NCBI RefSeq assembly: GCF_014205055.1
Contig: NZ_JACHMS010000001.1
Span: forward strand, 806,001 to 870,000
DNA from: Streptomyces luteogriseus
Lineage (GTDB): Bacteria; Actinomycetota; Actinomycetes; Streptomycetales; Streptomycetaceae
Direction of reading: 5' to 3'
Length of the DNA: 64,000 bases
The notes below the pieces were generated by a model. The model worked only from the letters and a program-made list of their open reading frames with translations, did no database searches and was not told the origin of the DNA. How positions within the stretch are numbered: position 1 is the stretch's first letter; every line of letters starts with the position of its first letter. Position numbers and translations under genes: made by a program. Positions 1 through 40,083 of the stretch are shown piece after piece.

Positions 1-690
1 AGTGCGCGGTGTACCGGAGGTGGTGGGCCGAGTACCGGGTCGACGGGGTGCTGGTGGTCGACCCGCGCACGGACGACCCCCGGCCCGGCCTTCTGGACGA
101 GCTCGGCCTGCCCGCCGTGGTGATCGGGGGCGAGCCGGACGAGCGGCATCCGGGTCTGTCGACGGTGTGGGCGGACGACGCGGGTGCCATGGCGGCGGTG
201 GTGGACGGGCTGTACGCGCTCGGCCATCGCCGGATCGCGCACATCGCGGGGCTCCCCGGGCTGGCCCACACCGAGCGCCGGATCCGCACCCTGCGGGCCG
301 AGGCGGAGCGGCGCGGCCTGTCCGAGGTGCAGTCGGTGCCGACCGACTACTCGGACGAGGCGGGCGCGGCCGTCACGCGCCGGGTGCTGGACGGTCCCGG
401 TGCCCCGACGGCCCTGATCTACGACAACGACGTGATGGCCGTCGCCGGGGTCGCCGCCGCGACCGAGATGGGGTTCGCCGTGCCTGCGGACGTGTCGGTG
501 GTGGCCTGGGAGGACTCCGCCCTGTGCCGCCTGGTCAAGCCGTGGCTGTCCGCACTGTCCCGGGACAGCGTGGAGTTCGGCCGCACGGCGGCGCGGGAAC
601 TGACCGCCCTGCTGGACGGCGGCCCGGACGGTGCGGGTGCCGGTGCCGACGCTGATCGAGCGGGACAGCACGGGGCCGGCGCGAGGCACC
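1..690 (+). pseudogene. LacI-family transcriptional regulator, C-terminal part, frameshifted
   Basis: The sugar-sensing, periplasmic-binding-like domain of a LacI/GalR regulator; the DNA-binding N-terminus lies before the window. The frame entering the window reads YRVDGVLVVDPRTDD, then GHRRIAHIAGLPG, TALIYDNDVMAVAG and DVSVVAWEDSALC, all typical of this fold. Near base 625-632 the expected ending (VRVPVPTLIERDST) moves into another frame, so an indel has occurred in the GGCCCGGACGG stretch. The original frame then has no stop and runs in frame into the next gene. The family is clear; whether this is a true lesion or a sequencing error is not. Confidence 0.75.
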
Positions 691-740
691 GCCCAGGCCG
701 GGCCTTCCGTCCCGTACCCGGCGGGGCCACACTGGACCGT

Positions 741-1781
741 ATGCGGCTTCGGGGCACCGCCTGCGCGGCCGCCGGACTGCTGCTGGCCGTCGCGACGGGC
801 TGCACCGGCGGTGCGGAGGACGCCGCGCCCGAGACGTCCCCGGTGCCGGCCCGGGCCACCGGCGAGAGGCCCCCCGGTGAGAGCCCCCGCACCGCGCCCT
901 CCCCCACTCCGGCCGACCCCGTCTCCCTCCAGGCCCTGATGCGGCGCGAGCACACCGGCTCCGGCCTGCGTGTCGGCGAGGTGCTCGACCGCACCTCCGC
1001 CTACACCCGCCACGCCGTCACCTACGAGGCGAACGGCCTGACGATCTCGGGGATCATGAACATCCCGGAGGGCGAGGGGCCGTTCCCGGCGGTGGTGCTG
1101 GCGCACGGCCACATCGATCCGGACGTCTACTTCAGCGGCCAGGGCATGCCCCGTGAGCAGGACCGTCTGGCCCGCCACGGCTATGTCGTCCTGCACACCG
1201 ACTACCGCAACCACGCCCGCTCCGACAAGGACCCGGACAACGACGTGAACCTGCGCCTCGGCTACACCGAGGACGTCATCGGCGCCGCCCTGGCCCTGCG
1301 CGACTCCGGGCGCCCCGAGATCGACGGCGACCGCATCGGGCTGTTCGGGCGGTCGATGGGCGGCGGGGTCCTGTACAACACGCTGGTCGTGGCGCCCGGT
1401 CTGTTCGACGCGGCGGTCGCGTACGCCCCGGTCAGCGCTCGGCCGGAGGAGAACATCGACCACTTCCAGCGGCCGAACGGCGACCCCGTCGTCACCGAGA
1501 TCGAGGAGAGGCACGGAACGCCCGAGGAGAACCCGGGGTTCTGGCGCGGAGTCACGCCGCTCAGCCACGTGGACCGCGTCACCGAACCCCTGCTGATCCA
1601 GCACGGCTCCGCGGACGACACCTGCCCGCCGCGCTGGTCTCGGGAGGCCGCGGCAGCTTTCGAGAAGGCGGGCAAGGACGTCGAGCTGCGCACCGTCCCC
1701 GGCGAGGGACACACCTTCGGGCCGAAGTGGGCGGCCTCGATGGACGTCACCGAGGCCTTCCTATCGCGGCATCTGCGCTGA
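741..1781 (+). CDS. lipoprotein alpha/beta hydrolase (S9 / dienelactone-hydrolase-like)
   Basis: A 346-residue secreted hydrolase. The start is the ATG of MRLRGTACAAAGLL, which opens a lipoprotein signal peptide with lipobox VATGC, so the enzyme is probably anchored outside the membrane. A Ser/Thr/Pro-rich spacer follows, then the hydrolase fold: oxyanion-region AHGHIDPD, nucleophile elbow GRSMGGG, acid loop GSADDTCP and catalytic His in GEGHTF. These fit prolyl-oligopeptidase or acetyl-xylan-esterase-type hydrolases. The substrate cannot be read from sequence. It is in frame with the broken lacI upstream, without an intervening stop, but its own signal peptide marks it as a separate gene. 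Confidence 0.85.
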   Translation: MRLRGTACAAAGLLLAVATGCTGGAEDAAPETSPVPARATGERPPGESPRTAPSPTPADPVSLQALMRREHTGSGLRVGEVLDRTSAYTRHAVTYEANGLTISGIMNIPEGEGPFPAVVLAHGHIDPDVYFSGQGMPREQDRLARHGYVVLHTDYRNHARSDKDPDNDVNLRLGYTEDVIGAALALRDSGRPEIDGDRIGLFGRSMGGGVLYNTLVVAPGLFDAAVAYAPVSARPEENIDHFQRPNGDPVVTEIEERHGTPEENPGFWRGVTPLSHVDRVTEPLLIQHGSADDTCPPRWSREAAAAFEKAGKDVELRTVPGEGHTFGPKWAASMDVTEAFLSRHLR

Positions 1782-1901
1782 GCCCGCGCAGGGGTGAGGC
1801 GGGGAAACGGTCGGCGATCTCGACGCACGGTCCCCACCCGGTGCACAGTTCTCCCTACGTACTCGTCAGTAAGTCCGCCCTCTCCCCTCCGAGGAGCCGC
1901 T

Positions 1902-3245
1902 GTGACCACCTGGGCCGGCCGCACCGCCGCCGAGATATCCGCCGCCGTACGCGAGAAGCGGGTCACGCCCCGCGAGGTGGTCGCCGAGCACCTCGCCCGG
2001 ATCGAGCGGCTCGACGGCCGGGTCGGGGCCTTCCGCACGGTGCGCGCCGAGGCGGCCCTGGCCGAGGCCGACGCGGTGGCGGCGCGCGGCGACTTCGCCG
2101 AACTGCCCCTGGCCGGGGTGCCCGTGGCCGTCAAGGACAACCTCGCCGTGCGCGGCGAGTCCCGGCGGATCGGCTCGGCCGCGACGCCGGACACCCCGGC
2201 GCCACGGGACCATGTGACGGTGGCCCGGCTGCGGGCCGCGGGCGCGGTGGTCGTGGGGCTGACGAACGTCCCCGAACTGTGCGTCTTCGGCACCACGGAC
2301 GGTGTGCTGGGCATCGCCCGCAACCCCTGGGACCCCACGCGTTCGGCGGGCGGTTCGTCGGGCGGCAGCGCGGCCGCCGTCGCCGCCGGGATGGTGCCGA
2401 TCGCCCTCGGCAACGACGGCATGGGGTCCCTGCGCATACCGGCCGCCAACTGCGGCCTGGTCACCATCAAGCCGGGGCAGGGGGTCGTCCCGACCGGCGA
2501 CGGGGACAGCACCTGGTTCGGCATGTCGGAGAACGGGCCGCTCGCCACGACCGTCGAGGACGCCCGCCTGATGTTCTCGGTCCTCGCCGGCACCGAGCCC
2601 GGTCCCGTGTCCGCACCCGGCGTCCTCAGGGTCGCCGTGTCACTGCGCAGTCCCCTGGCGGGCGTCACCATCAGCCGTCCGTACGCGGCGGCCGCCCGGG
2701 ACGCGGCCGGACTGCTGATGCGGGCGGGGCATCAGGTCCGGCGCGCCGACCCGCCCTACCCGCTGTCGCTCGCCATGACCTCCCTGGCGCACTGGACGGC
2801 GGGCACCGCCGCGGACGCCCGGCCTCTCGACCCCCGGCTGCTGACCCGGCGCACCCGCGTCCACGCGCGGCTCGGCCGGCCCTTCCTGCGCACGGTGAGC
2901 TCCGGGGCGAGCCGGGAGCAGCTGCGCCGGAGGCTGGAGCCGTTCTTCACCGAGCACGACGTGCTGCTCACGCCCGCGCTCGCCCGCCGCTCCCCGAAGG
3001 CCGGGCCCTGGCACGAGCGGGGGTGGCTGAGCAATGTGCTGGCGAACACGAACTACTCGCCCCTGACGCCCGCGTGGAACCTGACCGGCTGGCCCGCCCT
3101 GTCCGTCCCGTGCGGGACCCTCCCCTCCGGTGCGCCGTGCGCCGTGCAGCTGGTGGGCCTGCCCGGCACGGAGTCCCGACTCCTCGACCTGGCCGGGCAG
3201 TTGGAGGAACGAAACCCGTGGCAGCGGACGGCGCCGATGGACTAG
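1902..3245 (+). CDS. amidase (amidase-signature family)
   Basis: A 447-residue amidase-signature hydrolase that would cleave a carboxamide to acid and ammonia through a Ser-cisSer-Lys triad. The Lys is in PVAVKDNLA, the Gly/Ser-rich signature is GGSSGGSAAAVAAGM, and the nucleophile region is DGMGSLRIPAANCG. The GTG at 1902 is chosen because GAGGAG lies 6 bases upstream and the protein then begins MTTWAGRTAAEIS, the usual N-terminal helix. Length fits small actinobacterial amidases. Specificity is unknown; the neighbours give no pathway context. Confidence 0.9.
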   Translation: MTTWAGRTAAEISAAVREKRVTPREVVAEHLARIERLDGRVGAFRTVRAEAALAEADAVAARGDFAELPLAGVPVAVKDNLAVRGESRRIGSAATPDTPAPRDHVTVARLRAAGAVVVGLTNVPELCVFGTTDGVLGIARNPWDPTRSAGGSSGGSAAAVAAGMVPIALGNDGMGSLRIPAANCGLVTIKPGQGVVPTGDGDSTWFGMSENGPLATTVEDARLMFSVLAGTEPGPVSAPGVLRVAVSLRSPLAGVTISRPYAAAARDAAGLLMRAGHQVRRADPPYPLSLAMTSLAHWTAGTAADARPLDPRLLTRRTRVHARLGRPFLRTVSSGASREQLRRRLEPFFTEHDVLLTPALARRSPKAGPWHERGWLSNVLANTNYSPLTPAWNLTGWPALSVPCGTLPSGAPCAVQLVGLPGTESRLLDLAGQLEERNPWQRTAPMD

Positions 3246-3453
3246 GGTCGGCCGGGTGACTGCCGGGTCGGCCGTAGGCCATGCACGAGTGAGGCGCCCG
3301 GCCTCGGAGTGAGCGTGGCGGGGGCGACCCCGCCCGGGCCCGCCCGAGAGCCGGAGAGGGCACGCGCCCCGCCTCCCGTCCTTCGTGTCCTCATCCCCGC
3401 GCCCCTCAGCGGCGCTTCATCACGGATCCCGAAACCCGGAGACGAACCCACGT

Positions 3454-3873
3454 ATGTCCGACACCCGGCACACCACCGACCTCCCGACGACCGTCGCCCA
3501 TCTGAACCACACCGCCGTCTACGCCGCCGACCGCCGGCTGTCGGCGGAGTTCCTGGCGGCCGTCCTGGGCCTGGAGGTCGGCGCCCCCTTCGGCCCGTTC
3601 CTGCCCGTCGACCTGGGCAACGGCGTGACCCTCGACTACTACGAGAAGACCGACGAGCCGATCCAGTCGCAGCACTACGCGTTCCTCGTGCCCGACGAGC
3701 GGTTCGACGGCATGATCGACCGCTTGGAGGCGCTCGGCGTCACCTACTACGCCGACCCGAACCACACCCAACCCGGCCGGGTCAACGACCTCTTCGGGGG
3801 GCGCGGCGCCTACTTCGACGACCCGGACGGCCACAACATGGAGATCATGACCCGGCCGTACGCCCGGCCCTGA
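3454..3873 (+). CDS. VOC-family (glyoxalase/bleomycin-resistance-fold) protein
   Basis: A 139-residue vicinal-oxygen-chelate protein. It shows LNHTAVYAADRRLSAEFLAAV at the start of the first beta-alpha module and GRGAYFDDPDGHNMEIMTR at the end of the second, where HNMEI carries the usual metal-binding Glu. ATG 3454 follows a GGAGA ribosome site 11 bases upstream. The length suits a single-domain dimeric VOC enzyme or binding protein. The reaction cannot be assigned. It converges with the GNAT gene that ends at 3896. Confidence 0.85.
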   Translation: MSDTRHTTDLPTTVAHLNHTAVYAADRRLSAEFLAAVLGLEVGAPFGPFLPVDLGNGVTLDYYEKTDEPIQSQHYAFLVPDERFDGMIDRLEALGVTYYADPNHTQPGRVNDLFGGRGAYFDDPDGHNMEIMTRPYARP

Positions 3874-3895
3874 AAGCTGGGGCCGCCCGGTCGCG

Positions 3896-4378
3896 CTACA
3901 GCGCCCGATACATGACGTGCAGCCCCACCCGGCCGTGCCGGGGGTGGTCGAACGCCTCGGGGACGGTGCCGAGGACCGTGAAGCCGAGGGACGTCCACAG
4001 CGTCACGGCCGGGTTGGTCTCGACGACGGCGTTGAAGACCATGCCCCGGTAGCCGGCGGCCCGGGCCTCGGCCAGGAGGTGCTCGGCGAGGGCCCGGCCG
4101 TAGCCGCGGCCGCCCTGGCCGGGGTCGACCATGAAGCCGGCGTTGGCGATGCGGGCGGCGGGGCCACCGTAGTTGGGGGTGAGATAGGCGGAGGCGACCA
4201 CGGCGCCGCCGTCGTCCTCGACGACGTAGACGCGCTTCGCCGGGTTCATCCACAGGACCCGGGCCTCCTCCTCGGAGGTGCCCGGGTCCCATGCGTAGGT
4301 CTCGCCCGCGGCGACGATGCGGTGCCAGAACGGCCAGATGCGAGGCCAGTCGTCAGCCGTTGCTTCCCTGATCAGCAT
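3896..4378 (-). CDS. GNAT-family N-acetyltransferase
   Basis: A 160-residue acyl-CoA-dependent acetyltransferase, close in architecture to phosphinothricin/L-amino-acid acetyltransferases. It begins MLIREATADDWPRIW. It has VASAYLTPNYG on strand beta-4, the acetyl-CoA loop DPGQGGRGYGRALAEHLL (Q/RxxGxG/A type), and ETNPAVTLWTSLGFTVLG near the C-terminus. ATG 4378 opens the conserved N-terminus, although no strong ribosome site precedes it. Substrate unknown. Confidence 0.85.
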   Translation of the reverse strand: MLIREATADDWPRIWPFWHRIVAAGETYAWDPGTSEEEARVLWMNPAKRVYVVEDDGGAVVASAYLTPNYGGPAARIANAGFMVDPGQGGRGYGRALAEHLLAEARAAGYRGMVFNAVVETNPAVTLWTSLGFTVLGTVPEAFDHPRHGRVGLHVMYRAL

Positions 4379-4434
4379 GGTCGCGAGTCTGGCACGGCCA
4401 TGCGCTCGGAGGTCGCGGAGGGGTCCGCCCGGGG

Positions 4435-4608
4435 TCAGTCGACGCTGGGCAGGATGTGGGGCTCTGCGAGGTCGTCCTCGTAGCCCGCGAGGCGGATCGG
4501 GGCCGAACGGGCCCACACGTCGAGGCTGCCGAGCTCGTCGGCCCGTCGGCCGGCGCGCTCGCCGCGTTCCTTGGGGCGTTGATCGCGATTCGTCTTCTCC
4601 GGTGTCAC
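4435..4608 (-). CDS. small conserved-looking hypothetical protein (57 aa)
   Basis: A short gene starting at GTG 4608 with a strong AAGGAG ribosome site 6 bases upstream. It encodes 57 charged residues: MTPEKTNRDQRPKERGERAG, then ADELGSLDVWARSAP, IRLAGYEDDLAEPHIL and PSVD. The N-terminal half is rich in Lys, Arg and Glu; the C-terminal half is acidic. There is no signal peptide or membrane segment. Codon use is as biased to G/C as in neighbouring genes. I believe similar small proteins occur in other Streptomyces but cannot name a function. It lies 56 bases upstream of the GNAT gene on the same strand. Confidence 0.65.
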   Translation of the reverse strand: MTPEKTNRDQRPKERGERAGRRADELGSLDVWARSAPIRLAGYEDDLAEPHILPSVD

Positions 4609-4683
4609 CGCGCACTCCTTATGTGTCGGTCACCCTCGGGACGTACGCGCCGGTCCTGCTGCGCCTGACGCCCGCTCGGGCCT

Positions 4684-4809
4684 CTATGTCAAAAGCAGTT
4701 CGGACGCGGTGGCGCCGGTCGACTCACGGGAGAGCAGGCCGTGGTGTACCGGCTGGTCCCATGACGGACCGTGGGTGTGGGTATGACCCGTGCTGCTGTC
4801 CGTCCGCAT
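4684..4809 (-). CDS. possible short His-rich peptide (41 aa)
   Basis: A short open frame beginning at ATG 4809, with TGHTHTHGPSWDQPVHHG in the middle and a Ser/Thr/Leu-rich end. Third-position GC is about three quarters, higher than expected for random intergenic DNA here, but no ribosome site is visible. The histidine cluster could bind metal; this is speculation. Weakly supported. Confidence 0.25.
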   Translation of the reverse strand: MRTDSSTGHTHTHGPSWDQPVHHGLLSRESTGATASELLLT

Positions 4810-5063
4810 CAGACTAACCAGATGAGCGGAGCCCCGCTCGATGGGGCTGGAAACAGCCGGTAACAATCACGCGTCATCCGCCGTTCAACTCGTGTTTACG
4901 TACGGATCTGTAGGCATAAGCCCGTTTTGCAAATCACTCGAACGGCGTACGTCGGTGACGGCGCTTTCCAGACGGTTGCGCAGTTCAAGCGCCGTTGGCC
5001 GAGCCGCAAGCTCGCCATGCTCTGCTGCCGTACGCAACGGCTGTCTCGCGGGAGGACTGACGC
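4810..5063. other. intergenic/leader region without recognisable gene
   Basis: No coding signature. This stretch should carry the promoter of the gene starting at 5064, whose GGGAGGA ribosome site is at 5050-5056. I could not find a convincing -35/-10 pair or a structured RNA. Confidence 0.4.
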
Positions 5064-5516
5064 ATGGAGCTGCGCAGCGTCGAGGAGCTGATGGATCTGC
5101 TGTACGCCTGCCGGGGCACCCGGGACGTCCCGGGCCGCGCCCGACCGCCGGCCGTCGACCTGCACGACCACGCGCTGCGGACCGCGGCGCTGCTGCGCCG
5201 CGGACGCCCGGCGGACAAGGAGCTCCAAGTCGCGGGCCTGGTGCAACCCGTCGGCGGGCTGCTGTGGCCCGGTGACCCCGCCGGGCGCGCGGACCACGCG
5301 GCCGACGCGGTGCGCACCCTGCTCGGCGAACGGGTGGCCCGCCTCGTGCGCCACTGCCCCTGCCGGGACACCCCGGCCGACGACGACCTCCTCGCCCTCC
5401 GTCAGGCATCCGAGGAGGGCCGCACGGCCGCCTTCGACGCCGGGGTCCTGGAGGACTGGCGCACGGTCCTGGAACTACTGGCGGCCCGGAACTCCCCTCT
5501 CGGGGCGATGGACTGA
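5064..5516 (+). CDS. degenerate HD-domain protein (PhnZ-like, metal motif lost)
   Basis: A 150-residue protein following the layout of phosphonate-associated HD-domain oxygenases and phosphohydrolases (PhnZ-like). It has SVEELMDLLYACRG at the N-terminus, then HDHALRTAALLRRG, KELQVAGLVQPVGGLL, DHAADAVRTLLGERVARLV and a final SEEGRTAAFDAGVLEDWRTV. In active relatives the third block reads LLHDIGHL and supplies the metal-binding His-Asp; here it reads LVQPVGGL, so the diiron centre should not form normally. It may be non-catalytic or binding-only. The start is set by GGGAGGA, 7 bases upstream of ATG 5064. Confidence 0.65.
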   Translation: MELRSVEELMDLLYACRGTRDVPGRARPPAVDLHDHALRTAALLRRGRPADKELQVAGLVQPVGGLLWPGDPAGRADHAADAVRTLLGERVARLVRHCPCRDTPADDDLLALRQASEEGRTAAFDAGVLEDWRTVLELLAARNSPLGAMD

Positions 5517-5582
5517 CGTGCCGTCACCACCCGTGACGCCCAAGGCCACGATCGACTCGAGGGCGGGGGGAACCGGTCCCGC

Positions 5583-7085
5583 CTACCACTTGCCCGGCGC
5601 GTAGTCCTTCATGAAGACGCCGTACAGGTCCTCGCCCGCCTCGCCCCGCACGATCGGGTCGTAGACCCGGGCCGCACCGTCGACCAGGTCGAGCGGGGCG
5701 TGGAAGCCGGCCTCGGCGAGCCGCAGCTTGTCGTAATGCGGCCGCTCGTCCGTGATCCAGCCCGTGTCGACCGAGGTCATCAGGATGCCGTCGGTCTGGA
5801 ACATCTCCTGCGCGCTGGTCCGCGTCACCATGTTCATCGCCGCCTTGGCCGCGTTGGTGTTCGGGTGTCCCGCACCCTTGTACCCGCGCCCGAAGACACC
5901 CTCCATCGCGGACACGTTCACCACGTACGCGCGTCCGCTCTCCGCCTTCTTCGCGGCCTCCGCCATGGCCGGCCGCAGCTTGCTGATCAGGATGAACGGT
6001 GCCGTGTAGTTGCACAGCTGCGTCTCCAGCAGCTCCACCGGCGAGATCTGCTCGATCGTCTGCACCCAGGTGTTGGAGTCGACGACGTCGGGCACGAGGC
6101 CGCCCGCGTCGATCGCCGTGCCGTCCAGGTGCCGTTCGACGCTGGCGTTGCCGGCGACCAGGGCGAGGTCGGCGACCTTCTGGGCGTCGAGGCCGCTGGT
6201 GCCGAGGGGCAGCGCCGCGATGCCGTCGACCGCGCCGGAGTTGAAGGCGCCGATGACGTGGTGGGCGGGCAGCTCACCGGCGGGCAGCGGCGCGCTCTCG
6301 CCCTCGACGAGCGCGGCGTAGGCGGAGGGCAGGCGCCGCACGGTCTGGGTCGCGTTGTTGACGAGGATGTCGAGCGGGCCGGCCTCGGCGACCTGGTCGG
6401 CGAGGGCCACGGCCTGGGCGGGGTCGCGCAGGTCGATGCCGACGACCTCCAGGCGGTGCATCCAGTCCGCGGAGTCGTCCATCGCCTTGAAGCGGCGGAT
6501 GGCGTCCTTGGGGAAGCGGGTGGTGATCGTGGTGTGCGCACCGTCGCGCAGCAGCCGGAGCGCGATGTACATGCCGATCTTGGCCCGGCCGCCGGTGAGC
6601 AGGGCGCGCTTGCCGGTGAGGTCGGCGCGGACGTCGCGCTTCTCGCGGTTCACGCGGGCGCAGTCCGGACACAGCTGGTGGTAGAAGTAGTCGACTTCCA
6701 CGTACCGGGACTTGCATGTGTAGCAGGAGCGCGGGCGCTGGAGTATCCCCGCGATCCTGCCCTCCTCGGTGGCCGACGACGGCAGCAGGCCCTCGGTCTC
6801 GTCGTCGATGCGCTGGGCCGAGCCGGTCGCGGTGGCCTCCGTGACCGCCTTGTCGTGGGCGGTCTTGGCGGCCCGGCGCTCCTGGCGGCGGCGCTGCTTG
6901 ACCGTGCGGTAGATGCCCGCCGTGGCCCGTCGCACCGCGATGGCGTCCGGGTGGTCGACGTCCAGCTTGTCGAGTTCCTCGAGCACGCCGAGGCAGACGG
7001 CCAGGCGCTCCGGGTCGATGCCGGGTCCGTACGAGAGCCCGCCGGCCCCGTCCATGGCCTGCGGGCCGTCCTCTGTCACCGTCAT
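5583..7085 (-). CDS. SDR-family oxidoreductase with N-terminal zinc-ribbon region
   Basis: A 500-residue protein. Residues about 1-115 form a helical, basic region. Residues about 120-145 hold CYTCKSRYVEV ... QLCPDCA, a CxxC...CxxC zinc ribbon. The rest is a Rossmann short-chain dehydrogenase: TGGRAKIGMYIALRLL binds NAD(P), LVNNATQ is the NNAG-type motif, NVSAMEG holds the catalytic Ser. The active-site segment HPNTNAAKAAMNM has the Lys but not the usual Tyr of YxxxK, so catalysis must differ or be absent. It lies 104 bases downstream of the WS/DGAT gene on the same strand, so a shared lipid-related role is possible but unproven. Confidence 0.8.
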   Translation of the reverse strand: MTVTEDGPQAMDGAGGLSYGPGIDPERLAVCLGVLEELDKLDVDHPDAIAVRRATAGIYRTVKQRRRQERRAAKTAHDKAVTEATATGSAQRIDDETEGLLPSSATEEGRIAGILQRPRSCYTCKSRYVEVDYFYHQLCPDCARVNREKRDVRADLTGKRALLTGGRAKIGMYIALRLLRDGAHTTITTRFPKDAIRRFKAMDDSADWMHRLEVVGIDLRDPAQAVALADQVAEAGPLDILVNNATQTVRRLPSAYAALVEGESAPLPAGELPAHHVIGAFNSGAVDGIAALPLGTSGLDAQKVADLALVAGNASVERHLDGTAIDAGGLVPDVVDSNTWVQTIEQISPVELLETQLCNYTAPFILISKLRPAMAEAAKKAESGRAYVVNVSAMEGVFGRGYKGAGHPNTNAAKAAMNMVTRTSAQEMFQTDGILMTSVDTGWITDERPHYDKLRLAEAGFHAPLDLVDGAARVYDPIVRGEAGEDLYGVFMKDYAPGKW

Positions 7086-7189
7086 CGCCGCTGTCGTTCC
7101 CTGCTCTGCCGTCGCGGCGCGCCGGTCGCGCCCGCATTCGAAGGCCGAATTCTACGGAGCGTCGGGCCGCACCGCCAAAGTCGCCTTGA

Positions 7190-8533
7190 TCACGACCGGC
7201 AGGCCTTGATCAGCGTCGCCACCTCCTTGGAGAGGGAAGTGGCGAACAGGTCGAGGTCGGGTACCGCCTCGCCGTCGGCGACGAGGCCGTAGTGGACGCT
7301 CCCCCGGTAGGTCGAGACCGCGACCGCCAGGGAGTGGCCGGGGGCCAGCGGGGCGAAGGGGAAGACGGCGGTGAGCGGGTGTCCGCCGAGCTTCAGGCCC
7401 AGGCTGGGCAGGGGCACGCTGGTCACCAGGAGGTCGAACCAGAGCCGGGCCGCCTGGCCGACCAGGGGGCCGCCGAGCCGGTGGGCGAGGGCGGGGACGT
7501 GGTCGGCGAGCAGGGCGACGGCGCCCGCGCCCCGGTTGGGGCCGGCGTCCTTGTTGCGGTCCATCGCGTCCCGGACCGAGGCCAGCCGGGCCAGCGGGTC
7601 CGGGTCGTCGACCGGAAGCCGTATCAAGTACCCGGAGAGCCGGTTGCCCTGCGGGTACGCGGTGCGCGGGCGGCGCTTGGAGACGGGGATCAGGGCCCGG
7701 GGCGCGACGCCCTCGCTGCCGTCGCCGCGCTCGTCGAGCCAGCGGCGCAGGGCTCCCGCGACGACCGCGATGAGGACGTCGTTGACGGTGCCGCCGACGG
7801 TCTTGCGGACGCGGTGCACGTCGTCGAGGTCGAGCGCCACTCCGGCGGTGCGGCGGGTGCCGCTCGGCTCGCAGGTGAGCGCGGGGGTGGAGCGCACGTC
7901 GAGGGAGGAGCGGGCGACGGAGGCGCCGATGTCCAGGGCGCGGCTCATGTCGGACAGGGCGCCGCGCATCATCCCGGGCAGATCCCGCACGTCCGGCACG
8001 AGGCCGCGGGGCGCCTCGGCGGGGCGGGGCCGGGGAGCGGGCAGGTCCATCGGGTCCATGACGCCCGCGGCGAGGGTCAGCGCCCGCAGCCCGTCGGCCA
8101 GGGCGTGGTGGAACTTGAACAGGACGGCGAAGCAGACACCGTCCTCGCCCGGCAGCACGTGGGCCTCCCAGGGTGGCCGGTCACGCTCCAGGGGGCGCTC
8201 CATGAGGCGGCCCGCGACCGTGTGGAAGTCGGCGGTCGGCGCGTGCAGCCGTACATGGTTGAGGGGGTCGAAGTCCGGGTCCGCCTCGCGGGCGGCACCG
8301 CCGAAGGCGAGCGGCCGGCGCAGGGCGGAGGGCAGCGGCTGCCACACGTCGCGGATGCGCATCCGCAGTCCGGGAACACCGGCGGCCCGGGCCGCGAGCA
8401 GGTCCGCCGCATGGGCGCCCGCGGCGGGCGAGTGCGCCGAGAAGATCCCGAGCGCGCCGAGGTGCATCGGGTGTTCGGCGGACTCGATGTTCCAGAACGC
8501 CAGGTCGAGGGGGGCGAGCAGATCAGCAGTCAA
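7190..8533 (-). CDS. wax ester synthase / diacylglycerol acyltransferase (WS/DGAT)
   Basis: A 447-residue acyltransferase that esterifies diacylglycerol or fatty alcohol with acyl-CoA for storage-lipid formation. The catalytic motif HHxxxDG is present as HHALADG, followed by the long WES domain: TVNDVLIAVVAGALRRWL, then NRLSGYLIRLPVDD, and TSVPLPSLGLKLGG near the end. The start is TTG 8533 with GAGGC upstream and N-terminus MTADLLAPLDLAFWNIES, matching the family. Streptomyces often carry several paralogues, so substrate preference is open. Confidence 0.9.
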   Translation of the reverse strand: MTADLLAPLDLAFWNIESAEHPMHLGALGIFSAHSPAAGAHAADLLAARAAGVPGLRMRIRDVWQPLPSALRRPLAFGGAAREADPDFDPLNHVRLHAPTADFHTVAGRLMERPLERDRPPWEAHVLPGEDGVCFAVLFKFHHALADGLRALTLAAGVMDPMDLPAPRPRPAEAPRGLVPDVRDLPGMMRGALSDMSRALDIGASVARSSLDVRSTPALTCEPSGTRRTAGVALDLDDVHRVRKTVGGTVNDVLIAVVAGALRRWLDERGDGSEGVAPRALIPVSKRRPRTAYPQGNRLSGYLIRLPVDDPDPLARLASVRDAMDRNKDAGPNRGAGAVALLADHVPALAHRLGGPLVGQAARLWFDLLVTSVPLPSLGLKLGGHPLTAVFPFAPLAPGHSLAVAVSTYRGSVHYGLVADGEAVPDLDLFATSLSKEVATLIKACRS

Positions 8534-32619: not shown

Positions 32620-33758
32620 GTGCCCTCTCCCGTGTCCCCTTCGGATCACGTCTCACCGCGTGCCGCTCTGCCCGCGGCGCAGTACGCCGCATCCCGGCAT
32701 GCGGCGTGGCTCGGCGCCGCCGCGATCATCACCGACGAGGTCGGCCGGGTCCTGCTGGTGCACCCCACCTACCGCGAGGACGACTCGTGGCTGCTGCCCG
32801 GAGGCGTCGTCGAAGCCGGCGAACACCCGCACGTCACCTGCAGGCGCGAAATCACCGAGGAACTGGGCCTGCCGGACCTGCCCTTGTCGGCCGTGCTCAC
32901 TGTCCACTCCTTCTCCCGAAACCACCCCGACCTCCAGCCCGCCACGGCATGCCCCGGCGAGATCCGGTTCGTCTTCGACGGGGGGGCCTCCGCCCCGACC
33001 AGGTGGAGGCGATCCGCCTGCCGCGCGAGGAGCTGTCCGAGTACGCCTTCCTGGAGACCCGGGACGCGGTGCAGCGGCTACGGCCCGTGGACGGGCAGAT
33101 CATGCTCGCCGCCTACCGTGCCCGGCTCGGGAACACCGCCACCGCTCACCTCGCCGACGGCCGGCACATCCACGACGTCCCGGCGCTGGACCGCCATGAC
33201 GTCCACGTCCGCTACCGGCCCCTGTGGGACAGCCCTCTCCACCGCGGCCCGGTCCCCGAGCGGCTGCCCATACAGCAAGCCTGGGCGTGGTGCTTCGCCC
33301 CCGACGGCCGGGTCATCCTGGTGGCCGACCCCGGCCCGCGGGGTGCGCTGCCGATGCTGCCCGGCGGCACCGTGGAGACGACCGACGCGACTCCCGAGGA
33401 CACCTTGCACCGCGAAGCCGCCGAGAAAGCCCAGCTCACCCTGGCCGATCCGGTGCGCCTGGGCTGGGTGCTGGACGAGACCGGTGAGATCTGTGGCGGC
33501 GTGGGGCCCAACGCCCGGCTCCGCCTGGCCGCCCGGATCACGTCCATCACAGGGGCGGCCGTCGACCCCGCCACCGGCCACCCCTTCGCCCGCCTGCTCA
33601 CCACCCCCGCCCAGGCAGCCGCCTTGCTGGGCTGGGGCCCGCCCGGCGCGCGGCAGGCCCAGCTCGCGGCGGAGACGGCACGAGAGCGGTGGGGCCTGCC
33701 CACCGCTCGCCCCGCCGCCATCGAGGAGATCCCGGCGGAGGGGATGCGGCTGACCTGA
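32620..33758 (+). pseudogene. two-domain NUDIX hydrolase, interrupted by a frameshift at a G tract
   Basis: Joined across one frameshift this encodes about 379 residues with two NUDIX-like domains. The first (WLGAAAIITDEVGRVLLVHP) has a complete box, GGVVEAGEHPHVTCRREITE then ELGL. The second (AWAWCFAPDGRVILVADPGP) has a weak box, GGTVETTDATPEDTLHREAA, lacking the REUxEE core. The frame changes at a run of seven G (32980-32986): FVFDGG continues as GLRPDQVEAIRLPREELSEY only if one more G is supplied. Ribosomal or polymerase slippage, phase variation, a true mutation or a sequencing error are all possible. GTG 32620 is the start. Confidence 0.75.
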
Positions 33759-33815
33759 CCCGAACGAGCACCCCGCCTCAACACGTCTCGCTCCACGCCC
33801 CTTTGAGGTAGCCCC

Positions 33816-35297
33816 ATGCCGTTGTCGCACGACCACATCCGCACCACCGTCGAGACCTACCTCGCTCGCCACCCTCACGAGCGCGAGCAGCTCGGCGGCC
33901 TCCTGGACGCCCTCGAACGTCCCACCGACATCGCCAGCCGCTCCACCTTCACCGGACACGTCACCTGCGGCGCGATCGTCGTCGACCCGCTCGGCCGCGT
34001 CCTGCACGTGCTGCACCTGGCGAGCGGGAAGGTTCTCGCTCCCGGTGGGCACGCCGAGCCCGAGGACGAGTCCCTGACAGCAGCGGCGCTGCGGGAGCTG
34101 CACGAGGAGACCGGGATCCCGCCCCAGGCCGTGGCACCGTGGCCCGGCTACGAGGCTGTGCCGTTCGACATCGACACCCACGACATCGACGCCCACCCGG
34201 GCAAAGGCGAACCCGGCCACCAGCACTTCGACCTCCGGTTCCTCTTCCGCCTGCACACCGCGACCGAGGCGCCAGTGGTGCTGCAGGAAGAAGAGGTCGG
34301 CGGCATCGAGTGGCGGCCCGTGGACAGGGTGACCTCCCCCTCCCTGCGCGACAAGCTGCTCAAGCTCACGCCGGAGACCGAACCGGAGAGGGCCAACGCC
34401 TCCGCCCTGATCTACAACGACCGCGGCGAGTACCTGCTCCACCTGCGTGACTACTTCCCGGGCCGGATCTGGGAGCCGGGCATGTGGTCCCTGCTGGGTG
34501 GCGGCCGAGAGCCCCAGGACGCCACCCTGGAACACACCGTGCGGCGCGAACTGGCCGAGGAAGCCGGCCTCGACATCGCCGACCTGACCCCGTTCGGCAC
34601 CGAGTACGCCTCCGACGACGCCGGCGCGACCGTGCCCATCGCCGTCTACGCCGGCCGCTGGAACGGTGATCCCCGCCAACTCCTCCTGACGGAAGGGGTG
34701 ATGCTGGCCTGGTTCGCCCCCGACGACCTCCACCGCCTGCGCATCGCCGACACCACCTGCGACCTCGTGCGGCGCCACGCCGCCGGCCGCGCGGTCGGCA
34801 CAGCGCCACAGAGCGAGCTCTCGCCGCACGACGAGCGCAGCCCGACTTCGCCGCACGGCACGGTCCTCAACGTCATCGGCGTTCACCTCTACCTGGAGCG
34901 GCCCGACGGGACGGTGCTGCTCGGGCTGCGCCACCCCGACTCCGTGTTCGCGCCGTCCACCTGGCACGTCCTGGCCGGCCACTGCGAGCAGGAGAGCGCC
35001 ATCACCTGCCTGATCAGGGAGGCACAGGAGGAAGCGGGCCTGCACATCGAGCAGCAAGACGTCGAACTCGTCCACGTCGTCCACCACCTCGACCAGGCCG
35101 GCGACCGGCCCCGCATGGGCCTGTTCTTTCGCGCCCACGCCTGGAGAGGCGAACCGGAACTGCGCGAGCCGGACAAGTGCACCCAGTGGACGTTCTGGGA
35201 CCCGGCCGCACTCCCCGACGATCTCGTCCCCTACACCCGGGTGGCCATCGAGGGCATCCGCGCCGGACGCCTCTACTCAGAAACGGGCTGGGCATGA
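33816..35297 (+). CDS. three-domain NUDIX hydrolase
   Basis: A 493-residue protein with three consecutive NUDIX domains: residues about 45-190 (CGAIVVDPLGRVLHVLHLAS, box end RELHEETGI), about 195-345 (ASALIYNDRGEYLLHLRDYF, box GGGREPQDATLEHTVRRELA with EEAGL), and about 350-490 (GVHLYLERPDGTVLLGLRHP, box GHCEQESAITCLIREAQEEA). The substrate class (nucleoside-diphosphate derivatives) is inferred from the family only. Tandem triple NUDIX proteins are rare. It overlaps a downstream short frame by ATGA and follows the two-domain NUDIX gene at 57 bases. Confidence 0.85.
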   Translation: MPLSHDHIRTTVETYLARHPHEREQLGGLLDALERPTDIASRSTFTGHVTCGAIVVDPLGRVLHVLHLASGKVLAPGGHAEPEDESLTAAALRELHEETGIPPQAVAPWPGYEAVPFDIDTHDIDAHPGKGEPGHQHFDLRFLFRLHTATEAPVVLQEEEVGGIEWRPVDRVTSPSLRDKLLKLTPETEPERANASALIYNDRGEYLLHLRDYFPGRIWEPGMWSLLGGGREPQDATLEHTVRRELAEEAGLDIADLTPFGTEYASDDAGATVPIAVYAGRWNGDPRQLLLTEGVMLAWFAPDDLHRLRIADTTCDLVRRHAAGRAVGTAPQSELSPHDERSPTSPHGTVLNVIGVHLYLERPDGTVLLGLRHPDSVFAPSTWHVLAGHCEQESAITCLIREAQEEAGLHIEQQDVELVHVVHHLDQAGDRPRMGLFFRAHAWRGEPELREPDKCTQWTFWDPAALPDDLVPYTRVAIEGIRAGRLYSETGWA

Positions 35298-35479
35298 GCA
35301 CGGCCGCCGCAGCGCGTCCAGAACTCCCGCCCGGAAGTACAGCAGTTCGCCGAGCGCGCGGGGTACTCGTCGCCCCTTGGCGGGCGCTCTCCGGGGCCGC
35401 GTCAGCAGCCGGGTACGCCCGGCCGAGGGGCCTCTCGCCGCTGGGCACCTTCACGAAAGCGGTCGGTCGCTTCCGGTAG
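35294..35479 (+). CDS. short ORF translationally coupled to the NUDIX gene, probably truncated
   Basis: Sixty-one residues starting MSTAAAARPELPPGSTAVRR from an ATG that overlaps the NUDIX stop as ATGA, a strong sign that a gene once followed in the operon. The sequence is basic and Ala/Arg-rich with no recognised motif, and the following DNA looks scrambled. Likely the N-terminus of a lost gene. Confidence 0.35.
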   Translation: MSTAAAARPELPPGSTAVRRARGVLVAPWRALSGAASAAGYARPRGLSPLGTFTKAVGRFR

Positions 35480-35888
35480 TCGAACAGACGCCGAAGGGGC
35501 TCTCGCGCCGGAAAATGTGCGGCTCAAGCTCGCTCTCGCAGATGATTTTGCGGTGATCCATTGACCGGGGCCAAGGCGCCCGGATAGAAAGATCACGACC
35601 AGCACCGCGATCGCGAGTCCGGTCCGTACAGCTGTACCGCCGGGGGACGCAGGCGCTCGGCGATCTCGTCGAGTTCATCGAGAACAACCCGGCAGGCTGC
35701 GCTTCCCGGCGGACTGGCTGGTCCTCGCGGCGCTCTTCGCCCTGCCCGGGCTCGCACGCCACCGTTGGTGCGCGGTCTGGAGAAGGCCCGCTCCCGGACG
35801 GAGCCTGCGTGGGCCTGAGCAGACCGGCCGGGCGCCCGTCCGGACCGCATGTGTCACACCCGTCCATCGAGACAAGTAGGCGAGCACC
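35480..35888. other. degenerate region before the aldolase gene
   Basis: About 400 bases without a gene. Short frames such as YRRGTQALGDLVEFIENNPA (near 35635-35695) and FPADWLVLAALFALPGLARH (near 35700-35760) look like two frames of one disrupted gene, family not identified. Confidence 0.4.
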
Positions 35889-37088
35889 TTGACCGTACAG
35901 CGACGACACGACCCTGACGAGCGCGGCTTCGCCAGCGACAACTACGCGGGTGCGCACCCCGAGGTCCTTGCGGCGATCGCCCTGGCCAACGGCGGTCACC
36001 AGGTCAGTTACGGAGCCGACGTCTACACCGAGCGCCTTCAGGAAGTGGTGCGCGGCCACTTCGGCCCCACCGCGCAGACGTATCCGGTCTTCAACGGCAC
36101 CGGCGCGAACGTGGTCGCGCTGCAGACCATGCTCGACCGCTGGGACGCCGTGGTCTGCGCCGAGTCGGCCCACATCAACGTCGACGAGGGCGGGGCGCCC
36201 GAGAAGGTCGCCGGGATCAAACTCCTGACGGTGCCCGCATGGGACGGCAAGCTCACCCCGGAGCTGATCGACCGTCAGGCATGGGGCTTCGAGGACGAGC
36301 ACCGGGCCCGGCCCAAGGTCGTCTCGATCGCCCAGGCAACCGAGCTCGGCACCTGCTACACGCCGGACGAGATCCGTGCGATCTGCGACCACGCGCACGA
36401 CCTCGGCATGCTCGTCTACCTGGACGGCGCCCGGCTCGCCAACGCCGCCGCCACCCTCGGCGTGTCCCTGCGCGAGATGACCACCGACGCCGGTGTGGAC
36501 GTCCTCTCACTCGGCGGCACCAAGAACGGGCTGCTCTTCGGCGAGGCGGTGATCGTGCTCAACGCGGACGCGGTGCGTGGCATGGCCCACCTGCGCAAGA
36601 CGAGCATGCAGCTGGGCTCCAAGATGCGTTTCATGTCGGTGCAGTTCGAGGCGCTGCTGGGCGGCGACCTCTGGCTGCGCTCGGCGGCCCGCTCCAACGC
36701 GATGACCCAGCGGCTGTACGAGGCGGTGCGCGAACTGCCGGGCCTGGAGATCTCTCGCCCGGTGCAGGCCAACCAGATCTTCGCCGTCCTGCCGCCGGCC
36801 GTCACCGAGCGCCTCCAGAAGCGTTTCCGCTTCTACACCTGGGACGAGCAGGCCGGCGAGGTCCGCTGGATGACATCCTTCGACACCACCGAGGGCGACG
36901 TGGAGGCGTTCGCGGCGGCGATCACGGAGGAGCTGGCTGCGGAGCGGGGCCAAGGACAGGCGGGCGCGCTGACCGTGGCCGAGCGTGAGGAACTGGTGCA
37001 ACTGCGCCGCAAGGTCCGCGAGATGGAAGAGACGATAGAAGCGCTGGGGAAAGAACCTGCCTCCTCCGCGAACCGCAAGACGAAGTAG
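35889..37088 (+). CDS. threonine aldolase / beta-eliminating lyase fused to an IS3 OrfA tail
   Basis: A 399-residue PLP enzyme of the low-specificity threonine aldolase family, which would split L-threonine or allo-threonine to glycine and acetaldehyde. It has FASDNYAGAHPEVLAAIALA, YPVFNGTGANVVAL, PKVVSIAQATELGTCYT, the cofactor Asp in YLDGARLANAAAT and the PLP Lys in LSLGGTKNGLLFGEA. The catalytic domain ends near residue 350. The last about 40 residues (LTVAEREELVQLRRKVREME, ETIEALGK) match the leucine-zipper end of IS3-family OrfA, not aldolases. TTG 35889 gives the family N-terminus but has a poor ribosome site. Confidence 0.85.
   Translation: MTVQRRHDPDERGFASDNYAGAHPEVLAAIALANGGHQVSYGADVYTERLQEVVRGHFGPTAQTYPVFNGTGANVVALQTMLDRWDAVVCAESAHINVDEGGAPEKVAGIKLLTVPAWDGKLTPELIDRQAWGFEDEHRARPKVVSIAQATELGTCYTPDEIRAICDHAHDLGMLVYLDGARLANAAATLGVSLREMTTDAGVDVLSLGGTKNGLLFGEAVIVLNADAVRGMAHLRKTSMQLGSKMRFMSVQFEALLGGDLWLRSAARSNAMTQRLYEAVRELPGLEISRPVQANQIFAVLPPAVTERLQKRFRFYTWDEQAGEVRWMTSFDTTEGDVEAFAAAITEELAAERGQGQAGALTVAEREELVQLRRKVREMEETIEALGKEPASSANRKTK
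36969..37085 (+). mobile_element. IS3-family OrfA C-terminal remnant fused to the aldolase
   Basis: Codes for LTVAEREELVQLRRKVREME and ETIEALGK, the conserved end of IS3 OrfA proteins (AERAEL..LRRKVRE.EKTIEVLGKA in relatives). No OrfB or inverted repeats follow. It is in frame with the aldolase, so an insertion followed by deletion probably replaced the native 3' end. Confidence 0.7.
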
Positions 37089-37361
37089 CCGGCGGCGGAG
37101 CCTGGGAGGCCGGGCGAGCGTCCTGCCCCCGGGCAGGAGAAGCACGAAGAGGTGTCCCGGTTCGAGGTCCCACTGCTCGGCAGCATGCTCGGTGATCACG
37201 TGGGGAGGCTGCCACTGGTCGACTACCGTCCCGCCACACTCCAGCCGCCCGGCTTCGTCCCAGGTCAGATGCCAAAATACTGCTGGAACACGAGGGCGTG
37301 TTGCGAAAGTGAGGCAAAGGACTCGTTCGGTGTCTGGTACGGGTCGTGTGATGCTGGCGCA
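37089..37361. other. intergenic with an unidentified minus-strand fragment
   Basis: About 270 bases between the aldolase and the GNAT gene. On the minus strand, about 37130-37270 reads HLTWDEAGRLECGGTVVDQW then EHAAEQWDLEPGHLFVLLLP, which looks like coding sequence with no start or end; family unknown. Confidence 0.4.
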
Positions 37362-37859
37362 ATGACTGATCGACGCGAGGTTGTCATCGTCCGCTGGCCA
37401 GGTCAGGGCCCTTCCGTGGATCGGTTGGCCGAGTTGCTGGCGGCCTACCATCTGCGGACGGAGGCAGAGAAGGGCGAGGCCGTTGTCGATGTGGACGGGT
37501 TACCGGACCGCTATCGGGCAGAAATCCTGGACCCGCGGGCCGCGTTCGCCGACGATGTCGTGCTGATGGCTCTGAGCGGCGACACAGCCGTGGGCTGTCT
37601 GGTGGTGACCGCCCCCGTCGGCGGCCGGTCAGAGGTCAAGAGGCTCTGGACAGACCCGGCATTCCGGAGCCGGGGCATCGCGTCCGGCCTGGTCGGCGCC
37701 GCGCTTGCGCATTCCGCGGAGAGCGGCGTCGGTACGGTACGGCTGTCGGTGTGGAAGTGGCGGGCAGGTGCCATCGCTCTGTACGAGCGGCTCGGTTTCA
37801 CCGTCGCCCCATCATGGGAGGAACGGGATCAACTGGTGTGCATGGAGCGTGCCGTGTGA
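37362..37859 (+). CDS. GNAT-family N-acetyltransferase
   Basis: A 165-residue acetyltransferase with VDRLAELLAAYHLRTEAEKG, LMALSGDTAVGCLVVTAPVG, the acyl-CoA loop VKRLWTDPAFRSRGIASGLV and RAGAIALYERLGFTVAPSW. ATG 37362 (MTDRREVVIVRWPGQG) gives a compact single domain; no strong ribosome site is visible. Substrate unknown. The flanks are mobile-element debris, so this may be an acquired gene. Confidence 0.85.
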   Translation: MTDRREVVIVRWPGQGPSVDRLAELLAAYHLRTEAEKGEAVVDVDGLPDRYRAEILDPRAAFADDVVLMALSGDTAVGCLVVTAPVGGRSEVKRLWTDPAFRSRGIASGLVGAALAHSAESGVGTVRLSVWKWRAGAIALYERLGFTVAPSWEERDQLVCMERAV

Positions 37860-37860
37860 G

Positions 37861-37965
37861 TGGCCACAGCCACTCGTTGATGGCTGCGACCAGCTGATCG
37901 TCCTTCTCCGGGATCGTGCAGCGGATGCTACGTCGACGCAGGTAGGCACGGTTCACGCGTGACCC
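37861..37965 (-). mobile_element. IS5-family transposase remnant
   Basis: The minus strand reads RVNRAYLRRRSIRCTIPEK followed by DDQLVAAINEWLW. NRAYLRRRGIRCTIPEK is the hallmark central motif of IS5-group transposases in Streptomyces. Only about 30 codons remain, with no termini. Confidence 0.7.
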
Positions 37966-38592
37966 GTACGCGCCGGTGACGTACCAGCAGGCCTCCTACG
38001 CCCGTGATCCGGCCAGGGCGAGGCACTGGAGTCGTCCTGGTACGGCGATTGCCTACCGAGCCGGGACTTCCCGATGCCGATCAACCTGCATCCGCAAGAG
38101 CCCCTTCCGTCGGACGGGTTCGTCACCGAGACAATCCAACTACCCCCGTCCCAGCCGCAGTTGCAGACACCCCCGCCGGCACCTTCAGCCTGGGAGGCCG
38201 GTCGGCGACCGACGGCTGAGGCTGACGGCTGACGGCCAGTCGCTTGCACCCCACGCCCACAACGACCACATCCATGCCGCGCCCGCCCTCGCCGACCGGC
38301 CCGGCGCACCGGTCTTTCTGCACCTGGGCGACCGGTTGTCGTGGAAGCACAAAACACACCGACCGTGCACCCGGCGGCCACCTCCCGGACGCCGCCGCCT
38401 CACCGTCGCGGCGGCGGAACTCAGGGTCTGGCACACCACCGGCGCCCGGACCGAGGTGCGCCGGCACCTCGGCAGGGGCATGGTCCACCCGACCACTGGG
38501 GCCGACTCCGGGCATCCCTCCGTGCCGGGACAACAGCAGGCACCAGCTCGCGCGACGGGCGTCTTGACAACCTGGAACACAAGAGAAAAGCT
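37966..38592. other. decayed sequence upstream of sdaA
   Basis: About 620 bases without an intact gene. A plus-strand frame at about 38025-38220 reads [20 protein letters not shown] then [20 protein letters not shown] and looks like a C-terminal gene fragment. A frame near 38225-38320 with APHAHNDHIHAAPALAD resembles the start of a glycerophosphodiesterase-like domain, weakly. These are probably relics beside the IS5 remnant. Confidence 0.35.
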
Positions 38593-38621
38593 GTTGCGCA
38601 TTGAGATGCCGGTTGCTCAAT
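38593..38621 (+). promoter_or_regulatory. tandem 19-bp direct-repeat operator upstream of sdaA
   Basis: Half-sites GTTGCGCATT (38593) and GTTGCTCAAT (38612), start-to-start distance 19 bp, ending 80 bases before the sdaA start. A TTGACA box lies just upstream (about 38564). It shares spacing and sequence with sites before the other betaine-pathway genes; proposed IclR binding site. Confidence 0.65.
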
Positions 38622-38700
38622 CAGAAACCAAGGCATCCGCGGTCGAGAGGTTCCGCTCGCACCTCCCGCCACACCCACGCGCAGACAAGGGAGCCCGCTC

Positions 38701-40083
38701 GTGGCCATCTCCGTCTTCGACCTCTTCTCCATCGGCATAGGCCCGTCCAGTTCGCACACGGTCGGTCCCATGCGGGCCGCCCGCATGTTCGCCGGCAGGC
38801 TGGAGAAGGAGGATCTGCTCGCACGGACGGCGTCGGTACGGGCCGAGCTCTTCGGGTCACTGGGGGCCACCGGCCACGGTCACGGCACCCCCAAGGCCGT
38901 CCTGCTCGGCCTGGAGGGCAACGAGCCGCACACGGTGGATGTCGGCGTGGCCGAAGGGGACGTGGAGCGGATCAGGTCGACGGGGCGGCTGCGTCTGCTG
39001 GGCCGCGAGCTCGGCGACACCCACGAGATCCCCTTCGACACGGAGCGGCACCTGGTCCTGCACCGCCGCCGTTCCCTGCCGTACCACGCCAACGGCATGA
39101 AGCTGTTCGCATACGACGCCGAGGGACTGCCCTTGCTGGAGGCCACCTACTACTCGGTCGGCGGCGGGTTCGTCGTCGACGAGGAGGCCGCCGGCGCGGA
39201 CCGGGTCAAGGTCGACGACACCGTGGTGAAATACCCGTTCGGCAGCGGCGACGAGCTGCTGCGCCTGACCCGGGAAACGGGTCTGTCGATCTCGGCGCTG
39301 ATGCTGGAGAACGAGCTGGCCTGGCGGACCGAGGAGGAGATCCGCGCGGGGCTGCTGGAGATCTGGCGGGTGATGCGGGAATGCGTGGCGCGCGGCCTGT
39401 CCTGTGAGGGGATCCTGCCGGGCGGGCTCAGGGTCCGCCGTCGTTCCACCGCCGTGGCCAAGGCGCTGCGAGCCGAGGGCGACCCGGCGGGGCGGGCACT
39501 GGAGTGGGTGACCCTCTACGCCATGGCGGTCAACGAGGAGAACGCGGCCGGCGGCAGGGTGGTCACCGCTCCGACCAACGGCGCGGCCGGCATCATCCCG
39601 GCGGTCCTGCACTACTACGTCAACTTCGTGCACGGAGCCGACGACGACGCCGTGGTCCGGTTCATGCTGGCGGCCGGCGCCATCGGCCTGCTGTTCAAGG
39701 AGAACGCCTCGATCTCAGGCGCCGAGGTCGGCTGCCAAGGCGAGGTCGGCGCCGCCTGTTCCATGGCCGCGGGCGGCCTCGCGGAGGTACTCGGCGGCTC
39801 GCCCGAACAAGTGGAGAACGCCGCCGAGATCGGCATGGAACACAACCTGGGCCTGACCTGCGACCCGGTCGGCGGCCTGGTGCAGATCCCGTGCATCGAG
39901 CGCAACGGCATGGCGGCGGTCAAGGCCGTCACCGCGGCCCGGATGGCCCTGCGGGGCGACGGCCGCCACCACGTCTCCCTGGACAAGGTCATCAAGACCA
40001 TGAAGGAGACGGGCGCCGACATGAAGGTCAAGTACAAGGAGACGGCCCGCGGCGGGCTCGCGGTCAACGTCATCGAGTGCTGA
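38701..40083 (+). CDS. sdaA: L-serine ammonia-lyase (iron-sulphur type)
   Basis: A 460-residue single-chain L-serine dehydratase, converting serine to pyruvate and ammonia with a 4Fe-4S cluster. N-terminal domain: [21 protein letters not shown]-terminal catalytic domain: [40 protein letters not shown] with cluster cysteines, and [23 protein letters not shown] 38701 follows AAGGGAG. It is the last step of the glycine betaine-glycine-serine-pyruvate route encoded downstream and carries the shared operator. Confidence 0.96.

Follow-up and report, generated by a model that had tools for sequence, protein, structure and literature searches.

A threonine-aldolase-like gene of Streptomyces luteogriseus is a real fusion of a PLP enzyme with the zipper of an IS3-family OrfA, formed once and found as an open gene in 13 Streptomyces genomes, seven of which lack the accompanying hydrazine-synthetase-type cluster at that place. 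Sequence comparison makes the origin of the added tail clear; its functional role is not. Fragments of insertion sequences usually come to notice by disrupting bacterial genes. Here, the state before the event (an untailed sister gene in the same kind of cluster), a relative of the donor (an intact OrfA) and the state after it (13 fusions of single origin) are all available, so that the idea of a transposase oligomerisation module becoming permanent in a metabolic enzyme is directly testable. Among the titles and abstract starts of the open literature that were searched for IS-derived tails or fusions, and for threonine aldolases with coiled coils, no such case was found, and one may be published.

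The window, by which we mean the whole 64,000-nucleotide stretch of DNA that was analysed, contains the fusion gene and the scraps around it that are listed in table 1. In a profile search, residues 14–299 of the encoded protein match Beta_elim_lyase (PF01212; 8e-50, 170 bits against a cutoff of 27), the sole Pfam match of the open reading frame, while the NCBIfam model GntG_guanitoxin reaches 77 bits, under its cutoff of 230. Among solved structures its closest relatives are L-threonine aldolases, with 5vye matched at 2e-80 over residues 12–346. Lysine K212, which stands in the motif GGTKNG and is taken as the PLP-binding residue of the family, is invariant across 17 aligned proteins. By these comparisons the body of the fusion is a full-length threonine-aldolase-like PLP enzyme with K212 kept, and an earlier sequence-only reading was right to call it complete through its catalytic residues. 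The start codon varies: where the window has TTG, 11 of the 12 other open tailed copies read ATG, and in L104, the remaining one, the opening stretch is different. An ordinary Streptomyces paralogue is also present in the genome of the window (C1:7726209) and lies on a separate branch, at 74% identity. Neighbouring genes encode a 493-residue protein with three consecutive NUDIX stretches upstream (33816–35297, +), and downstream an L-serine dehydratase (SDH alpha and beta; 38701–40083, +), with a GNAT acetyltransferase (37362–37859) between it and the aldolase.

Table 1. Features of the fusion gene and its flanks, in window positions.
Feature	Position	Strand	Remarks
Left border of the lost cluster	35419..35645	+	Match to L099 660-893, immediately ahead of the first ATP-grasp gene
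48-bp scrap from inside the N-hydroxylase gene of the lost cluster	35667..35714	+	L099 3005-3053
Remnant, last codons of an MFS transporter gene, which in relatives comes immediately before the aldolase	35715..35809	+	Comparison with relatives
Fusion open reading frame: threonine-aldolase-like PLP enzyme and IS3 OrfA-derived tail	35889..37088	+	399 aa, TTG start
Native enzyme part: residues 1-351 plus base 1 of codon 352	35889..36942	+	Colinear with the untailed sister gene, L113
IS3 OrfA-derived tail (residues 352-399) and stop	36943..37088	+	Corresponds to OrfA residues 54-99
Predicted tail helix, residues 363-387, heptad core L-L-V-M-I-L	36975..37049	+	AlphaFold model
Scrap, 5' end of a DDE_5-type transposase, abutting the tail; further piece 37227-37300	37143..37213	-	DNA and protein matches

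The tail resembles a different kind of protein. When the whole protein was used to search its relatives, the matches comprised, besides aldolases, open reading frames of mostly about 100 residues that match its end only, and a search with the last 51 residues alone gave hits in 20 of 101 Streptomyces genomes, of which G000, G013 and G123 were hit through their tailed genes. The best intact relative of the donor is the OrfA of genome G081 (locus L101), which has an HTH_Tnp_1 domain and adjoins an OrfB with an rve integrase core. Residues 54–99 of this OrfA align with window positions 36942–37079 at 70% identity (tblastn, E 6e-14). The likeness extends to DNA: five tailed loci match the same orfA at 72–77% over 117–151 columns, and three of these five alignments take in the OrfA stop codon and reach no more than a dozen bases beyond it, and the remaining two fall short of its last base by 1 and 19 bases. 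An independent blastn of the G081 element against the region gave 36970–37088 (72% over 119 bases, E 2e-13), again ending at the stop (37088). The agreement is thus closer than a chance resemblance between coiled coils would give, judging by these alignments, and the IS3 OrfA source named by the sequence-only reading stands; its estimate of about 40 residues was too short, the tail having 48.

Only part of the transposase subunit is present. HTH_Tnp_1 covers residues 8–78 of the intact OrfA and the tail begins at OrfA residue 54, so at most the last third of that domain lies in the tail; the tail alone has no Pfam match above a family cutoff and none to HTH_Tnp_1. It does hold the zipper-like C-terminal heptads of IS3-family OrfA. 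When the OrfA and OrfB of L101 were compared with the whole window by tblastn, the tail was the only match and the rve-bearing OrfB matched nowhere; three IS3-bearing stretches of DNA (their ends unmapped), compared with window positions 33001–40000, gave clear matches in the tail only, the others being short and weak. A possible second in-frame fusion was seen elsewhere, in L066 (G011:C45), where the same subtype of OrfA is open in one 271-codon frame whose next stretch, by eye, resembles another transposase.

The tail was added behind an enzyme that had kept its own end. The untailed sister gene, L113 of Streptomyces sp. CBMA152, shares 87% of its DNA with the window over 35715–36942, and 89% of its protein. 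At the junction, which follows base 36942, it terminates with Ala-Ala-Gly and a stop codon where the tailed genes read on. Since L113 ends exactly at this point, the fusion cost the ancestor about one glycine codon and the stop codon, and the native C-terminus is retained; the earlier proposal that the 3' end had been replaced does not hold, and its suggestion of a rearrangement leaving an in-frame graft does, the stop codon being removed relative to L113 and reading continuing to the OrfA stop. Other homologues end in the same region. In a comparison of C-termini that drew on 23 untailed and five tailed readable entries, the 23 untailed proteins end 348–353 residues past the first matched residue, and seven further untailed homologues, L113 included, end 347–354 residues past it.

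Full-length tailed matches occur in at least five of 392 sampled Streptomyces genomes (G000, G123, G197, G013 and G253, among the matches listed), a count made with the full protein as query, which a copy with a broken body could escape. A scan of named genomes, in which the best 80 of 322 relatives were retained and all 80 scanned for the tail, found it in 12 loci; C-termini were read in 19 of the 80, these 12 and seven untailed ones. With L105 (G123), L109 (G197) and L116 (G253) each counted once, the tailed genomes number at least 14, and in 13 of them the gene is open. All are Streptomyces: D2-8, cahuitamycinicus, tibetensis, massasporeus, iakyrus, NBC_00249, paradoxus, APSN-46.1, Isolate_45, NRRL B-1140, indiaensis and NRRL S-455, together with G013 and the genome of the window itself. 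The copy in Streptomyces sp. NRRL S-455 (L142, 7887–8327) has a broken body, matching residues 252–399 only, and a tail that is still readable. With the last 67 residues as query (E 1e-12), 150 relatives of G197 gave three matches, namely G197, G013 and the OrfA of G081.

In a tree of 50 enzyme bodies, from which L142 was omitted for its broken body and for which the tail state of the rows from named genomes was checked by the scan of all 80 loci, the 13 tailed rows fall on one side of a single branch (support 79/92, and 80% of 200 bootstrap trees); the set of 14 that adds L113 has support of 100/100. L113 stands at synonymous distances of 0.27–0.31 from five tailed bodies, compared with a mean of 0.10 among the 13 tailed genes. 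Recurrent fusion was rejected as one change on the tree suffices, and an assembly error in one genome was rejected as the junction recurs in 13 open genes of different genomes. A tail that is native to this subfamily of aldolases, or that is a coiled coil arisen by chance and owing nothing to IS3, would fit the presence of 13 open genes, by which the tail is not private to the window; the orfA DNA match down to the stop codon, the untailed homologues, sister L113 included, that end near residue 350, and the single origin on the tree all speak against it. This explanation is barely conceivable, and we rejected it on the orfA match and the untailed sister. The sequence-only reading had itself allowed that the same tail in orthologues of many genera would make it native, and the tailed copies found form one group within one genus. 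Almost certainly, then, the tail is IS3-derived, appended and of single origin.

The spread of the fused gene may have included transfer between species. Around the gene, the DNA common to the window and G013 consists of 35769–37093 only, bar one weak match elsewhere (67%, 236 bases), and between these two genomes the synonymous distance is 0.096 for the tailed body and 0.36 for the ordinary paralogue, a difference that suggests transfer for this one pair. Carriage on plasmids was considered and rejected: none of 133 plasmid records exceeds 80% identity (13 at 60–80%, 120 below 60%), and the 20 plasmid matches listed all end at residue 338 or before.

The site also bears traces of a second insertion sequence. 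The sequence-only reading had proposed a search for IS3 ends at 36960–37360; beyond the tail no IS3 sequence was recognised there in the comparisons with one OrfA and OrfB pair (protein) and three IS3-bearing stretches (DNA), and the interval contains instead the scrap of a DDE_5 transposase, presumably of the 'IS701 family'. The two pieces of this scrap match repeated Streptomyces DNA, at 89% over 71 bases in G109, and 21 of 150 genomes, one of them that of the window, show some match to 37089–37300, many of these matches being weak. The first residues of the transposase are weakly discernible in the window, L104, L109 and L111 and not discernible in the other five loci compared. These matches suggest that two different insertion sequences were at the site when the deletion occurred.

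In six tailed loci (L106, L107, L109, L110, L111 and L116) and in the untailed L113, the aldolase is the last gene of a cluster. Upstream of it lie genes for an MFS transporter and for one ATP-grasp and one MetRS-like protein, as well as those for a DAO-type oxidoreductase and a lysine/ornithine N-hydroxylase. The domains were read in L109 (compact cluster at 222–8333), where a small cupin, read in this locus only, lies between the N-hydroxylase and the oxidoreductase, and in L099 of the same genome (902–10289), where a second ATP-grasp gene opens the cluster. In the portion of a hydrazine review that was consulted, the N-hydroxylase, the cupin and the MetRS-like protein are parts of known hydrazine synthetase systems (PMC11705231), and we infer that the product of the cluster is a hydrazine compound. 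A term search of that portion gave zero occurrences of aldolase, so that the relatives offer a hydrazine-type cluster with an aldolase step absent from the review as searched (PMC11705231).

The window has lost this cluster. Its N-hydroxylase and MetRS-like genes, present in the six tailed relatives and L113, are absent from the window, and the cluster is reduced to the scraps of table 1 beside an intact fused aldolase gene. The other open tailed copies with no cluster in the stretch examined are L087, L104, L105, L108, L112 and L114. Some of the cluster-less copies retain part of the transporter gene, L108 keeping most of it (residues 97–466), and L108 and L087 have matches of 29–33% to other MetRS-like, ATP-grasp or MFS proteins. 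A search of 392 genomes for the MetRS-like protein at E 1e-100 found G197, G253 and, third, G035 at 49% identity; the tailed, cluster-less genomes G000, G013 and G123 gave zero matches at that threshold. Several lineages, the window's included, have thus lost the rest of the cluster yet kept the fused enzyme.

The zipper-type heptad that the sequence-only reading saw in the tail falls in a predicted helix. AlphaFold places the tail behind a short loop as a separate helix, with pLDDT of 70, 85 and 66 in three ten-residue blocks; the model is of a single chain, from a shallow 17-sequence alignment, with mean pLDDT 70 (51–70 across five models). Among the 13 fusions the core places vary among hydrophobic residues only. 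At one of these places Gln stands in 21 of the 22 OrfA rows that could be read, a set that includes within-genome copies and leaves aside L062, L075, L076, L086 and one of two L080 rows; the fusions have Met there in 12 of 13 cases and Leu in the other. According to the parts consulted of two papers, the OrfA zippers or zipper-like coils of IS911 and IS2 serve self-association (PMC2909936, PMC3219604). Self-association is also what the fused helix most likely does, to judge by the heptad pattern, the model and its weak conservation, and the new oligomeric state that had been envisaged for the enzyme is plausible.

Constraint on the two parts of the protein is unequal. Pooled over the 13 tailed genes, pN/pS is 0.21 in the body (bootstrap 0.14–0.29) and 0.67 in the tail (0.42–1.07); within the tail it is 0.56 in the coil (0.29–1.06) and 1.67 in the last 14 codons (0.69–6.59). 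The body is clearly constrained, the tail much less. These values would suit a tail that is a harmless, tolerated scar, in which translation runs into OrfA sequence that drifts without function, and such drift would also fit the apparently unconstrained last codons. The 13 tails hold only two indels, both in-frame: a loss of 21 bases, or seven codons, in L112, and a gain of nine bases, or three codons, in L110, both of which likewise suit a scar, as does the similarity between the ratio at the heptad core, which was picked after the alignment was viewed (0.046/0.080, about 0.58), and that in the rest of the coil (0.110/0.209, about 0.53). Set against this reading are the absence of any stop or frameshift from all 13 tails at a mean tail dS of 0.18, and core places that are hydrophobic throughout.

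Simulations of neutral change along the tree of the bodies, scaled to the synonymous divergence of the tail (300 runs each at equilibrium G+C of 0.72, 0.5 and 0.3), bear on both sides. No tail acquired a stop in 8%, 2% and 2% of runs respectively, so that all tails stay open in just 2–8%, and the six heptad core places stayed hydrophobic throughout in 0%, 0.7% and 6%; an earlier star-tree simulation of 11 equal-length sequences, superseded by these runs, had given 3.1% for all tails open. A ratio as low as that observed arose in 1%, 13% and 56% of runs for the tail and 0.7%, 5.7% and 36% for the coil, and the tail is therefore ordinary under AT-biased mutation. The ratios do not firmly reject neutrality of the tail, and under strong AT bias they give no ground for rejecting it (P 0.56 tail, 0.36 coil). 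The evidence for selection on the tail is suggestive only: whether some selection has kept it is evenly balanced, and drift of a functionless scar is a serious contender, nearly as likely as self-association.

The helix might instead dock another protein, such as an enzyme of the hydrazine-type cluster. The tail occurs in six of the seven cluster-bearing loci seen, as docking would lead one to expect; yet the untailed L113 has the same cluster, the body and tail ratios are alike in the six genomes with the cluster and the seven without it at that place, where the tail is kept, and the three cluster-less genomes tested have no MetRS-like match elsewhere at the threshold given above. Docking is accordingly a highly improbable role for the tail.

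The account that we favour, and consider probable as a whole, is an IS3-derived graft made by deletion, with a self-associating tail. In one Streptomyces ancestor, an IS3-family element would have lain just downstream of the aldolase, the last gene of a hydrazine-synthetase-type cluster. A deletion would then have fused orfA, from about its codon 54 onwards, to the aldolase at a point one codon ahead of the aldolase stop; the junction and the donor are read from the sequence alignments, and the deletion itself is what we infer from them. Translation would thereafter continue into the OrfA zipper and terminate at the OrfA stop codon, and the fused gene would have been inherited or have spread among Streptomyces. 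Threonine aldolases are oligomers of the PLP fold. On the simplest mechanism, the tail helix would self-associate and so give this already oligomeric enzyme an additional weak coiled-coil contact, either among subunits or from one oligomer to another. An altered oligomeric state in vivo is doubtful; this estimate and that for selection on the tail were both set slightly lower because the heptad core is no more constrained than the places beside it. A stronger version, in which the zipper of the transposase became a domesticated assembly tag that gives a new quaternary state (for example, linked native oligomers), was tuned by the change of a core Gln to Met and thereby let the enzyme outlive its cluster, is unlikely.

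Compared with known systems, the fusion joins features of two protein families. It shares with the L-threonine aldolases of the Beta_elim_lyase family (PF01212; PDB 5vye, 7w0i, 7yvr and 1v72) its likeness over residues 12–346 and the motif GGTKNG; the five best solved of these relatives have 343–364 residues, whereas the enzyme of the window is longer by 48 residues that are transposase-derived. With IS3-family OrfA proteins, which combine HTH_Tnp_1 with a leucine zipper, as in IS911 and IS2, its tail shares OrfA residues 54–99, the heptad pattern and the stop codon. Unlike them, the fusion has no HTH_Tnp_1 match and no orfB or further IS3 DNA nearby in the searches described, and the Gln of the zipper core is replaced by Met or Leu. 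As far as the review covers them in the portion consulted, the MetRS/cupin hydrazine synthetase clusters (s56-p1, triacsin and azaserine; PMC11705231) share with the cluster of the relatives the N-hydroxylase and the MetRS-like protein, and with L109 the cupin; unlike these clusters, that of the relatives has ATP-grasp proteins and an MFS transporter in addition, as well as the aldolase.
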